Assembly: GCA_015069095.1 (NCBI GenBank)
Contig: SVJH01000021.1
Location: 1 to 35,390, forward strand
DNA: 35,390 bases
Source: Oscillospiraceae bacterium
Lineage (GTDB): Bacteria; Bacillota; Clostridia; UMGS1810
Direction: 5' to 3'
In this document: positions 3,782-30,374 of the stretch, one piece after another
Numbering within the stretch: the stretch's first letter is position 1
How the letters are laid out: each line of letters begins with the position of its first letter
Made by a program: the position numbers and the translations under genes
The notes under the pieces: generated by a model
The model's database searches: none
The model's input: only the letters and a program-made list of their open reading frames with translations
What the model was told of the DNA's origin: nothing

Positions 3782-5479
3782 TTACATTTTTTCAGGAGCT
3801 TCTATTGCTAAAATATCAAGTACGTTTTTAATAACTGTTTTTACTTGTTTAATAAGGAACAGTCTTGCTTTTGAAAGATTTACGTCATCGCATTTTACTC
3901 TGCATTTTGGAGCATTGTAGAATGTGTGGAAATTTGATGCCAAATCAAGTACATATCTTGTAATTCTGCTTGGGTCGCTTAGTGTTGCACAAAGTTTAAT
4001 TTCATTTGGAAGTGATGCAAGACTTGTCATAAGTTCAACTTCTTCATCTTCTTTAAGAAGTGTTACATCAGCACCTTGTGCATCTATTCCTTCTTCATTA
4101 AGTGCATTTATTATGCTTGCAATTCTTGCATGAGCGTACTGTACATAAAATACAGGGTTGTCGCTGTTTTGTGCAACTGCAAGGTCAAGGTCAAAATCAA
4201 GATGACTTTCGCTTTGGCGAAGATTAAAGAAAAATCTTGCAGCATCAACGCCGATTTCTTCGATTAAATCATTTAGAGTAATCATTTTACCCGTACGTTT
4301 GCTCATTCTTGCAATTTCGCCGTTTCTCATAAGACGTACAAGTTGCATTATTATAATTTCAAGTTTATCAGGGTCAGTTCCTATTGCACCAAGAGCACCT
4401 TTCATTCTTGCAACGTGTCCGTGGTGGTCTGCGCCCCAAACGTTGATACCTTTGTCAAATCCACGTTTTTCAAATTTATTTCTGTGGTACGCAATATCAA
4501 CTGCAAAATAAGTAGGAATTCCTGTATTTCTTATTAAAACTTCGTCTTTTTCGCTGCCAAATTCTGTTGCTTTAAGCCAAAGAGCACCGTCTTTTTCATA
4601 TGTAAGTCCGCTCTTTTTAAGTTCTTCCATAGTTTCATTAACTTCGCCGTTTTCGTGAAGAACACTTTCTTTAAACCATACATCGTAGTTGATTTTGTAT
4701 GCTTCAAGTCCTGTTTTTAAATTTGCAATATTGATAGGAAGAGCATAATCGCAAAGTGCTTGTCTTCTTTCTTCTTCAGGAGCATCAAGGTATTTATCGC
4801 CATAAATTTCAATAAAGTTTTTAGCGTGGTCTTTAATATCTTCGCCCTGATAACAATCTTCTGTAAGTTCAATGTAATCTTCGCCTTTTAAAAGTTGAAG
4901 GTATCTTATATCAAGTGATTTTTTGAATTTTTCAATCTGCGCACCTGCATCGTTGATGTAAAATTCTTTTGTTACATCGTAGCCGCATTTTTTAAGAATA
5001 TTTGCAAGAACATCGCCGATAACACCGCCTCTTGCATTACCCATATGCATAGGGCCAGTTGGATTTGCACTTACAAATTCAACAACAACTTTTTTGCCTT
5101 CGCCGATATCCGACTCGCCGTATTTTTCGTCCAAAGAATCAATTTCTTTTAAGTTATCATAAAGCCAGTCGCTTTTTAAGTAAAAGTTAATAAATCCAGG
5201 TCCTGCAATTTCTACTTTTTCAATGTATGTATCTTCAATGTCAAAATTATCTACCAAAAGCTGGGCTGTTTGTCTTGGAGGCATTTTTACAAGTTTTGTT
5301 ATTTTCATAGCAATATTACTTGAAAAATCTCCGTTTTGTTTATCTTTTGGAACTTCAATTTCTACAGGAAGCACAAAACCCGGCTCTTCAAATTTAAATG
5401 TTTTATTTTCTTCAAGGATAGCACAGGCGTTTCCTATAACAGAAGTAATTTCGTCTTTGATTTTTGCTATAATATCCAT
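3782..5479 (-). CDS. argS: Arginyl-tRNA synthetase
   Basis: Charges tRNA-Arg with arginine; cytoplasmic class I synthetase, 565 residues, normal for the bacterial enzyme. It has the N-terminal Arg additional domain (about 1-90), the HIGH-type signature in the form PTGPMHMGNARG, the KMSKS-type loop ARMSKRTGKMITL, and a C-terminal DALR anticodon-binding domain ending in the usual -APEKM type tail. The frame is open to 5518, but ATG 5479 has AAGGAG upstream and gives the proper N-terminus. It lies 10 bases after the DUF1934 gene, the same order I know for ywiB-argS in Bacillus, so co-transcription is likely. Confidence 0.96.
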   Translation of the reverse strand: MDIIAKIKDEITSVIGNACAILEENKTFKFEEPGFVLPVEIEVPKDKQNGDFSSNIAMKITKLVKMPPRQTAQLLVDNFDIEDTYIEKVEIAGPGFINFYLKSDWLYDNLKEIDSLDEKYGESDIGEGKKVVVEFVSANPTGPMHMGNARGGVIGDVLANILKKCGYDVTKEFYINDAGAQIEKFKKSLDIRYLQLLKGEDYIELTEDCYQGEDIKDHAKNFIEIYGDKYLDAPEEERRQALCDYALPINIANLKTGLEAYKINYDVWFKESVLHENGEVNETMEELKKSGLTYEKDGALWLKATEFGSEKDEVLIRNTGIPTYFAVDIAYHRNKFEKRGFDKGINVWGADHHGHVARMKGALGAIGTDPDKLEIIIMQLVRLMRNGEIARMSKRTGKMITLNDLIEEIGVDAARFFFNLRQSESHLDFDLDLAVAQNSDNPVFYVQYAHARIASIINALNEEGIDAQGADVTLLKEDEEVELMTSLASLPNEIKLCATLSDPSRITRYVLDLASNFHTFYNAPKCRVKCDDVNLSKARLFLIKQVKTVIKNVLDILAIEAPEKM

Positions 5480-27988: not shown

Positions 27989-28029
27989 AAAAGCATCCCA
28001 TAAGTGGGTTGGTCTTAAGGATAAAATAA

Positions 28030-28062
28030 AACCGAGTGAAAATAAATCACTCGGTTATTTTT
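28030..28062 (+). terminator. Terminator of ppa, inside the repeat element
   Basis: Stem AACCGAGTG (28030-28038) / CACTCGGTT (28048-28056) followed by ATTTTTATT. The same place in the copy at 35149-35176 has an unrelated sequence that pairs as well. Confidence 0.85.
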
Positions 28063-28286
28063 ATTGCTTGAATATTGTAGGGGACGGCGCGAAACGACGT
28101 CCCGTAAAGCCTCCCTTGTGTAAAGGGCGATGTTTGCCAGTGGCAAACGCTTATCGCCGACCGAAGTGGAACGTAGACGGGGGACCACATTAGTGGTGGA
28201 GGGATTGTAATTATTAAAATTACTATAGACACAATCCCTCAGTCTCGCATTTGCTCGACAGCTCCCTTTAGGCAAGGGAGCCTTTT

Positions 28287-28320
28287 TCAAAAATCCCTAA
28301 CACGCACTCACTTAAGGGAT
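28287..28320 (-). terminator. Terminator of the S26 operon, formed by the repeat end
   Basis: On the minus strand ATCCCT (28320-28315) pairs with AGGGAT (28297-28292), followed by TTTTT. The terminal inverted repeat of the element thus serves as a terminator-like hairpin for the operon that ends at 28325. Confidence 0.5.
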
Positions 28321-28324
28321 ACTT

Positions 28325-28783
28325 TTATTTTTTGAACATTCTTTTTAACTTGTTTTTTACTCTTCTTATAAATTTTCTTAAAGGTCTTGAATATGTCCAG
28401 AATACACAATAGCATTTATATGAAAAATCATCGCAACTTATGTATTTTCCATCTTTATAAAAACCTTTAAGCACCGCAACAACATCGTTATATGTTATTC
28501 CGTATTCTTTAACATACTGATGATCTCCGCACATAACGTATGAATCTTTTTTTACTTTTATAATTCTGTGCAAAACAAAACTTCCGTCGCTTCTTCTATA
28601 AAGAGGGACATCATATTTTTTTAGTCGGCTTCCTTGTTTTATTAAAACAATTGTATCCTCGCCGTTTCTAAGCAGTGGCATCATACTTGTGCCTGTTGCA
28701 ATCATTTTAAATTCTCCGCCACTTTCAAGAACTGCCTGCATTGCAGGATAAATTTTTTCAATCGAGAAACTAACAGTTTTCAA
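28325..28783 (-). CDS. S24/S26-type peptidase with Ser-His dyad, signal-peptidase-like
   Basis: Protein of 152 residues with the signal-peptidase-like fold. GTSMMPLL carries the nucleophile Ser33, and the next motif is VLHRIIKV with His72 where most bacterial leader peptidases have Lys, as in the SipW/Sec11 type. A GDHQ segment and Asp100 follow. The usual N-terminal membrane anchor is absent; a short hydrophobic stretch (about 122-131) and a very basic tail (RKFIRRVKNKLKRMFKK) lie at the C-terminus. The start is TTG 28783 with AAGGAG 8 bases upstream, overlapping the PqqD-like gene by 14 bases. It is likely to process a protein or peptide handled by the two upstream genes. Its real substrate is unknown. 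Confidence 0.8.
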   Translation of the reverse strand: MKTVSFSIEKIYPAMQAVLESGGEFKMIATGTSMMPLLRNGEDTIVLIKQGSRLKKYDVPLYRRSDGSFVLHRIIKVKKDSYVMCGDHQYVKEYGITYNDVVAVLKGFYKDGKYISCDDFSYKCYCVFWTYSRPLRKFIRRVKNKLKRMFKK

Positions 28784-29039
28784 TTATATCGGCTCCTTTT
28801 AGAGTATTTAAAAATGTCTGTAAGTCCTCAGTTGCTGTTTTTTCGTCAATAGAATATTCTTTCATAAGTGCTTCTATAAGTTCGCCTTCTGTTGCACCTG
28901 TTTCAAGTTTTTTCCAAAGCATAATTCCGCTTTCATTTAGTGTTACCATTGAGTTAAATGTTTTGGAAAGTTTTCCCGTTGCTACAACTACACCGGTATC
29001 GTCAATTTCACTAAGTAAAAATCCTTTTTTAATATTCAT
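28770..29039 (-). CDS. PqqD-like peptide-binding (RRE) protein
   Basis: An 89-residue protein of the PqqD family, the winged-helix RiPP recognition element that binds leader peptides of ribosomally made peptides for a modifying enzyme. The visible pattern is FLLSEIDDTGVVVATG, LNESGIMLWKKLETGATEGEL (the core of the family), and DLQTFLNTLKGADII near the end. ATG follows the kinase stop codon with no gap (TAAATG) and has AAAGGAG upstream. No radical SAM enzyme, YcaO protein or peptide precursor is in the window, so its client is unidentified. It is the middle gene of a three-gene module. Confidence 0.85.
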   Translation of the reverse strand: MNIKKGFLLSEIDDTGVVVATGKLSKTFNSMVTLNESGIMLWKKLETGATEGELIEALMKEYSIDEKTATEDLQTFLNTLKGADIIENC

Positions 29040-29738
29040 TTAAATTTCTCCTTTACTCATTGTACTAAATGATAACATTGCTGCTTCATCGCTTATATTG
29101 CAATAAAGTCTGTACACATTCGTATTTTTTAAAGTCTCAATTACAAGTGCCATTAAATTTGCCATTTTATCTTCAGGTCTTATTGTCTGATTAAGTATTG
29201 GCAGTACTGCATCTGATGCTTTTACTTTTTCGATTTTATTTTCTATTCCACGCTCTAAAATGCATATTGATTTAAGCGGAACTTTTACATTTTTATTCTG
29301 GTCAGTTTTCCCTGAAAACGGCGTTCCGTAAACGTAAATTCCATCATCTTCAATTTTAATTGCAGGTTTATCGTCATTTATAATAAATGCATCTTCAAAA
29401 TTCTTAAGCCATAGTGATGTGTGGGTAGATTTACCCGTACCGCTTGATGCCGAGAACAAATACGCATTATTATCTTTTGCAACTGCAGATGAATGAAGTA
29501 AAAAACAGTTATAATCCAAGCATTTTTCATAAAAGAGCGAACCATAAAAAATATATTCACAATCGTCAAGCGTAAGATGTGGATTTTCCTTTTGTTGCTC
29601 ATTTAAAAATTCATCTGAAATGTAAAGTTCAAAGTCGATATTTTCTTCATCGCATATATACGCTTCGCTTTGAGTTTTTAAAGTTTTATATTTGGGATTC
29701 ATTTTTACATTCATCCCCGCGATTTTATATACCGGCAT
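29040..29738 (-). CDS. HprK-like serine kinase-family protein
   Basis: Protein of 232 residues related to the C-terminal kinase domain of HPr kinase and to the HprK-related kinases found in RiPP gene clusters. It shows LLHSSAV with His82 (the active-site region of the family), the P-loop SGTGKST (99-105), an acidic metal-binding segment INDDKPAI (121-128), and GTPFSGK (138-144). The N-terminal 70 residues are a divergent strand-rich domain, not the HPr kinase N-domain. GAGGTG precedes the ATG. It starts 15 bases after rex and abuts the PqqD-like gene. It is not the catabolite-control kinase of Firmicutes, as that is longer; a role in peptide modification is inference from its neighbours. Confidence 0.83.
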   Translation of the reverse strand: MPVYKIAGMNVKMNPKYKTLKTQSEAYICDEENIDFELYISDEFLNEQQKENPHLTLDDCEYIFYGSLFYEKCLDYNCFLLHSSAVAKDNNAYLFSASSGTGKSTHTSLWLKNFEDAFIINDDKPAIKIEDDGIYVYGTPFSGKTDQNKNVKVPLKSICILERGIENKIEKVKASDAVLPILNQTIRPEDKMANLMALVIETLKNTNVYRLYCNISDEAAMLSFSTMSKGEI

Positions 29739-29753
29739 CGTTTCACCTCTTAC

Positions 29754-30374
29754 TTATTTTATCTTGTATGATAATGTCATAAGACTATCTGACAAATGAA
29801 CATTTTCTATTGGAACATCTGAATCAAGTTCAATTTCGGCATATGAAAAATTCCATATTCCTTTTATACCATAGTCGATAAGTTGTTTTGCAATATCGTT
29901 TGCTACTTTTTTAGGAACTGTCAATATAGCAATTTCAGGTTTATTTTCTTTAATAAAATCTTTTAAACGGTCGTTATCATATACTTCTATACCATGTATT
30001 TTTGTACCTATTGTATCTTTGTCAATATCAAAAATCCCAATAAGTTGAAAACCTCTTTTTTCAAAGTTTGCATGGTTTGCAAGTGCATGACCGAGGTATC
30101 CCGCACCTATTAAAATTGTGCTTACACTTTTGTCAATACCTAATATTGATGCTATTTCATTTCTTAAAAGTTCCACATTGTATCCGTAGCCCTGCTGACC
30201 GAAACCTCCGAAAAAATTGAAATCCTGACGGATTTGGGATGCTGTTACTCCCATTTTTTTGCTAAGTTCTCCCGATGAAATTCTATAAACATTCTTTTTT
30301 AAAAGGTCATCGAGATAACGATAATATCTGGGTAGTCTTTTTGCAACTACCTCAGGAACATTCTTTTCCTTCAA
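29754..30374 (-). CDS. rex: Redox-sensing transcriptional repressor Rex
   Basis: NADH/NAD+-sensing repressor of fermentation genes in Firmicutes, 206 residues. An N-terminal winged helix (about 1-80: RLPRYYRYLDDL, SSGELSKKMGVTASQIRQD, FGGFGQQGYGYNV) precedes the Rossmann domain with GAGYLGHA, and a C-terminal swapped helix ends the protein. Start codon TTG 30374, with GGAGG 7 bases upstream; no better start in frame. It lies 80 bases after icd with no clear promoter in the gap, so it may be read from upstream. The palindrome AAACAG / CTGTTT (30401-30416) in the gap may be a weak hairpin or operator. I see no typical TTGTGAA-type Rex site there. Confidence 0.94.
   Translation of the reverse strand: MKEKNVPEVVAKRLPRYYRYLDDLLKKNVYRISSGELSKKMGVTASQIRQDFNFFGGFGQQGYGYNVELLRNEIASILGIDKSVSTILIGAGYLGHALANHANFEKRGFQLIGIFDIDKDTIGTKIHGIEVYDNDRLKDFIKENKPEIAILTVPKKVANDIAKQLIDYGIKGIWNFSYAEIELDSDVPIENVHLSDSLMTLSYKIK

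Follow-up and report, generated by a model that had tools for sequence, protein, structure and literature searches.

The trio and its surroundings

In this work, we focus on three tightly coupled genes carried by an Oscillospiraceae contig, of which a stretch of 35,390 nucleotides was analysed (hereafter the window). An earlier note, drawn from the letters alone, had placed three coupled open reading frames at 28325-29738, and they are indeed present there, on the minus strand. They are listed here with the rex gene that precedes them:

29754..30374, minus strand: rex, upstream of the trio on the same strand, outside the module
29040..29738, minus strand: HprK-fold kinase (LppK-type), 232 aa, with P-loop SGTGKST (99-105), His82, Asn121/Asp123/Lys124 and GTPxxGK (138-144)
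28770..29039, minus strand: PqqD-family RiPP recognition element (RRE, LppB-type), 89 aa, with Asn35 and Asp72 aligning with LppB N33 and D70
28325..28783, minus strand: S26/SipW-like leader peptidase (LppS-type), 152 aa, with a TTG start, Ser33/His72, Asp87 and Glu93

The stop codon of the kinase gene abuts the start of the PqqD gene (TAAATG at 29040/29039), and the TTG start of the peptidase gene (28783) is found 14 bases inside the PqqD gene, whose end is at 28770. Between the stop of rex (29754) and the kinase start (29738) there is a 15-base gap, and rex is possibly co-transcribed with the trio in the window. This gap and the shared strand speak for a redox-controlled rex operon in which the trio would functionally belong to Rex, much as the earlier note had suggested when it proposed redox control. 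Such a reading is nevertheless extremely improbable: among about 100 kinase/RRE/peptidase loci examined, rex is found near that of the window only, and membership of a Rex regulon was rejected because the linkage is not conserved. A repeat-like stretch (window 28000-28300) separates the peptidase gene from a pyrophosphatase gene, and a very similar stretch at locus L180 (11315-11449) encodes a near-identical spurious peptide. In G003, a genome of the same family, an RRE gene and a peptidase gene also adjoin an inorganic pyrophosphatase gene, with no kinase there (L096, contig C42, 8691-10234).

The kinase has no match in Pfam and only sub-threshold matches in NCBIfam (ScmC, HprK_rel_A/B), and the peptidase falls below the cut-offs of Pfam S24 and NCBIfam sigpep_I_arch. 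The AlphaFold2 model of the kinase (pLDDT 96.9) has HPr kinase/phosphorylase as its top fold match (1kkm, E 2.5e-5), while the model of the peptidase (pLDDT 94.6) matches LexA, UmuD and type I signal peptidases with weak E-values (best 2.1e-3). The PqqD protein matches Pfam PF05402 over its cut-off (E 5.5e-16). The families first assigned to the three proteins (HprK-related kinase, PqqD/RRE protein and signal-peptidase-like protease) are thus borne out, by the Pfam match for PqqD and by the models for the other two. Lys103 and Thr105 of the P-loop, His82 and Asp123 are kept in 28/28 aligned kinases; Ser33, His72 and Asp87 are invariant in 56/56 aligned peptidases, in which Glu93 is near-invariant; and Asn35 and Asp72 are kept in 35/36 and 28/36 aligned RREs, respectively. 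Since the expected functional residues are kept across relatives and the PqqD match is clear, the objection raised in advance, that the genes could have degraded active sites or lack a true RRE, does not apply. The window peptidase is the sole one of its type that was found in its own genome. In another genome (L103, G244, contig C282, 8506-9654), kinase and peptidase are found in a single open frame of 382 aa, which may be a natural fusion or an assembly error.

Among 391 related genomes of the class, the kinase profile matches 112, the RRE profile 119 and the peptidase profile 103; 100 genomes have all three enzymes, and of the 103 with the peptidase, 102 also have the kinase. The search for the trio and its flanking genes that the earlier note had called for shows that the trio recurs: all three families are grouped at 51 of 94 peptidase loci, the commonest arrangement being kinase-RRE-peptidase, the order of the window, within 2.2 kb (26 loci). 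This grouping is more than chance. Three neighbouring families, named by eye, are enriched by loci, namely an MsbA-like ABC exporter (49 near vs 4 far), SLH-domain proteins (30 vs 8) and an NTP-transferase-like family (17 vs 1); as the loci were chosen for their peptidase or kinase, these counts describe neighbourhoods, not random genomes.

Relation to known peptide systems

Linear polyphosphorylated peptides (LPP) are RiPPs described by Popov et al. (Nat Commun, 20 May 2026; PMC13381572), with a core made of LppK-LppB-LppS, as in lppAKBSDN of Paenibacillus alginolyticus. In that system, deletion of lppK abolished phosphorylation and deletion of lppS abolished leader removal; LppK phosphorylates Ser, the LppA site S3 corresponding to Tyr+18, and the peptidase cuts the LppA leader after F-E-T (PMC13381572). 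In LppB-LppA (9x8z), D70 of LppB contacts the leader Tyr and N33 the leader Pro (PMC13381572). The window likewise encodes an HprK-like kinase, with HprK/P as top fold match and its motif residues kept, a discrete RRE and, adjoining it, a SipW-like S26 leader peptidase with Ser and His. By alignment to 9x8z, Asn35 and Asp72 of the window RRE are N33 and D70 of LppB, which means that the residues touching the leader Tyr and Pro are retained. As LPPs are defined by the same enzymes, the trio is an LPP-type enzyme set, and therefore no cyclase, radical SAM enzyme or YcaO is expected. The remark of the earlier note that the usual precursor and modifying enzyme are missing holds for the precursor, as there is none near the trio, but loses its force for the modifying enzyme.

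Other systems share part of these features. Phosphorylated lasso peptides of the paeninodin type have, like the window system, an HprK-like kinase, an RRE, a YxxP/WxxP leader and an NTP transferase, but they rely on the transglutaminase-like leader peptidase B2 (PF13471) together with a macrolactam cyclase, whereas the window peptidase is S26-type. PF13471 has no match in the own genome, and a lasso peptide system was rejected on this ground; no asparagine-synthetase-like macrolactam cyclase was recognised by eye around the trio or in the stretch of the second cluster described below (C28). SipW of Bacillus subtilis is likewise a relative of the S26 signal peptidases of archaeal type, but it sits in the membrane and removes signal peptides from secreted proteins, whereas the window peptidase shows no sign of a membrane anchor and comes with an RRE. 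Anti-phage defence was rejected too, as PADLOC gave no convincing match.

Precursors scattered over the genome

The loci of many relatives encode a peptide of 35-70 aa with a YxxP leader, and in some of them (L100, L107, L121, L141) the trio itself adjoins such a precursor; genes for an ABC exporter and an NTP-transferase-like protein often accompany them. The short-ORF search around each instance, also proposed beforehand, thus found YxxP peptides at many loci of relatives but none beside the trio of the window, where no precursor following the YxxP rule lies within 6 kb of the trio and where no exporter, NTP transferase or precursor adjoins it. A variant order is seen in G003 (L044, contig C22, 1102-4426), with an upstream ORF, a 37-aa peptide (NDIVTTS), a 454-aa protein, which by eye may be a radical SAM enzyme, and a short-type kinase.

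In the own genome, contig C28 (L038, 9160-13381) carries a second cluster, made of a long-type HprK-like kinase, a 59-aa YxxP precursor (starting MKEYIKPTFDIVELRINEEINAS), a 343-aa secreted protein, an MsbA-like ABC exporter, which is the exporter candidate of this genome, and an RRE. It adjoins an SLH protein and lacks a peptidase like that of the window. Contig C21 carries a tandem pair of NTP_transf_5 (LppN-like) genes (L259, 6094-8523), with no linkage to either the trio or C28. The precursor inventory of the genome rests on profile searches. A profile made from 12 cis precursors and none of the scattered ones (A5) detected the precursor of C28 as well as 14 short ORFs located on other stretches, and a second profile, made from those 14 ORFs, gave 16 intact copies and a broken one. 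The 16 intact short genes (48-54 aa, for example MKNYIKPEVKINSFVSEDVITTSGTSTPTKQELIAKGYNIGTVNNLFNK) are scattered over the genome and have the leader YxxPxxx[IV]xxFxxED[IV]ITxSG. The broken copy is a remnant with an in-frame stop (L239, contig C20, about 4816-4947). Five precursor types were compared with NCBIfam, and no known precursor family was found.

The consensus of 43 precursors, assembled by hand and selected for their acidic/[IV] motif irrespective of Ser, is Y/F0-x-x-P3-x-hydrophobic5-x-[IV]7-x-x-F10-x-x-E13-[DN]14-[IV]15-I16-T17-x-S19-G20. Ser is found at Tyr+19 in 39 of these 43, and in 58 of a wider set of 88 ORFs, which a script filtered on the leader pattern and which still includes chance ORFs; in this wider set, no other position examined has Ser in more than 16 ORFs. 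The precursors and the enzymes also occur together. All three enzymes are present in 44 of the 49 precursor-bearing genomes and in 56 of the 342 without a precursor match (p 1e-24, a value that overstates independence because the genomes are related and phylogeny was ignored). The precursor profile (A7) drew on sequences of seven genomes that were also surveyed; when these are left out, the peptidase accompanies the precursor in 38 of 42 genomes and in 29 of 30 precursor-bearing genera. It is also present in all 16 genomes with at least three precursors. Several of the latter, including G116 and G360, have kinase and RRE on the same contig but the peptidase on a different one, so that the dispersion of the system is recurrent.

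Compared with LPP, the own genome has the YxxP leader, a Ser about 18-19 residues past the Tyr, no lasso peptidase, and genes for an MsbA-like exporter and NTP_transf_5 proteins. The differences concern the leader and the layout. The published LPP precursor motif is Px9Fx[T/A] (PMC13381572), whereas here we find P-x6-F-x2-E-D-[IV]-I-T: the leader is two residues longer, E-D-[IV]-I-T replaces F-E-T, and the hydrophobic-x-[T/A] comes two residues later. Precursor, exporter (C28) and NTP_transf_5 pair (C21) are all away from the trio, and the 16 precursors are scattered and paired with secreted-protein genes. Because the motif spacing and the lack of a cis precursor and exporter depart from the published definition, we term the system an LPP variant.

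We consider it very likely that the trio is the trans-acting maturation core (LppK-LppB-LppS) of an LPP-type RiPP pathway, with the scattered precursors as its substrates. The trans-acting module that the earlier note had put forward for a precursor encoded elsewhere is supported by the 16 scattered precursors, the co-occurrence of enzymes and precursors, the intact active sites and the leader-contact residues of the RRE; its other proposal, a minimal pathway with no precursor, is not, given these 16 genes. The trio could instead mainly serve the lone C28 precursor, the scattered peptides being matured otherwise or not at all. Indeed, C28 has no peptidase, the window has the only one of its type in the genome, and G003 shows the same split, with kinase, precursor, exporter and RRE on its contig C55 and RRE and peptidase on C42. 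We find this unlikely, since the window kinase is of the short type, which elsewhere adjoins precursors with EDII/EDIV leaders, and the scattered precursors have such a leader while the C28 precursor does not. Both roles are compatible in any case, and the C28 kinase/RRE pair could conversely serve the scattered precursors.

With the trio as a trans-acting core, we infer from the LPP work (PMC13381572) that the RRE would bind the YxxP leader of precursors made from about 16 other places. The kinase would then phosphorylate the conserved Ser at Tyr+19, the presumed counterpart of LppA S3 (PMC13381572). A different role, that of a nucleotide-dependent assembly or regulatory subunit, would leave a peptide that is only trimmed. 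The HprK-fold model resembles PEPCK too, and the kinase motifs NDDKP and GTPxxGK presumably differ from those of classical HprK. This role is nonetheless quite improbable, considering the invariance of the P-loop Lys and Thr and of the His and Asp, the action of LppK on Ser (PMC13381572) and the Ser kept at the equivalent place of the precursors. In the third step of the proposed pathway, the peptidase would cut the RRE-presented leader at its end, by analogy with LppS (PMC13381572). We place the cut most likely after Tyr+17 (ED-[IV]-I-T / x-S-G) because of the F-x-[T/A] analogy and because signal peptidases cut after small residues; a cut one residue earlier is possible. This would release a linear phosphopeptide of about 30 residues. 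More speculatively, an MsbA-like exporter, the nearest known being that of C28, might export this peptide, perhaps once the LppN-like proteins of C21 have carried out a further transfer.

The LPP enzyme set was already known; in our best reading, what is new is this dispersed, multi-substrate form linked to secreted proteins. LPP precursors were previously sought within or at most 5 kb from clusters, and phyletic patterns mapped in Bacilli (PMC13381572). Mining based on clusters near the enzymes would miss dispersed precursors, and our approach gives a way to the substrates of orphan RRE/kinase/peptidase sets. A literature search on dispersed or clostridial LPP versions found nothing relevant. 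A parallel in layout is that of the prochlorosins, whose precursors are dispersed in the genome. They have lanthipeptide chemistry and Nif11 leaders, belong to cyanobacteria, and to our knowledge are not paired with secreted proteins. One maturation enzyme (ProcM) serves many precursors per genome there (PMC10783134), as we propose here for the trio.

Apparently secreted partner proteins

In the own genome, 15 of the 16 precursors lie directly 3' of a partner gene that encodes a large, apparently secreted protein, secretion being judged by eye from the N-termini. Twelve are directly behind a gene for a protein that seems to start with a signal peptide (at L180, this gene has an internal stop); one (L185) follows an ORF that has no clear start of its own; and two are found at contig starts, just behind the C-terminus of a partner. 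The remaining one, on contig C9, has no upstream partner and a secreted-protein gene downstream. Seven partner proteins gave no confident Pfam domain.

In sequence, the precursor core covaries with the 110 C-terminal residues of the partner (Mantel r 0.88), the leader less so (0.50), and two partner C-terminal types, which a profile comparison could not join, pair with two core types. This covariation is due in part to duplication of the two-gene unit. However, when all collected ORFs were searched with the type-1 C-terminal domain profile, the matches outside the own genome were only beside such precursors (L228, E 1.6e-11; L235 and L243-L245, weaker), which argues that the pairing is maintained. 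We would tentatively suggest, as a possibility less likely than its opposite, that LPP-type phosphopeptides are no stand-alone natural products in this genome but dedicated partners of about 16 secreted surface proteins: each protein would come with a small peptide of its own, phosphorylated and trimmed in trans by the shared trio, that attaches to it, folds it or regulates it via the C-terminal domain; in this speculative last step, the exported peptide would act outside the cell with its co-encoded partner. The biological role of LPPs was stated as unknown (PMC13381572), and the detection of precursors across whole genomes, in several families and in pairs with secreted proteins, offers a first handle on LPP function, at the cell surface.

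In other genomes, the precursors found by pattern search have their upstream gene 9-38 bases away, except for the second one of a tandem pair. One such upstream gene ran past the end of the available stretch, and a few further precursors have a longer gap or no visible upstream gene.
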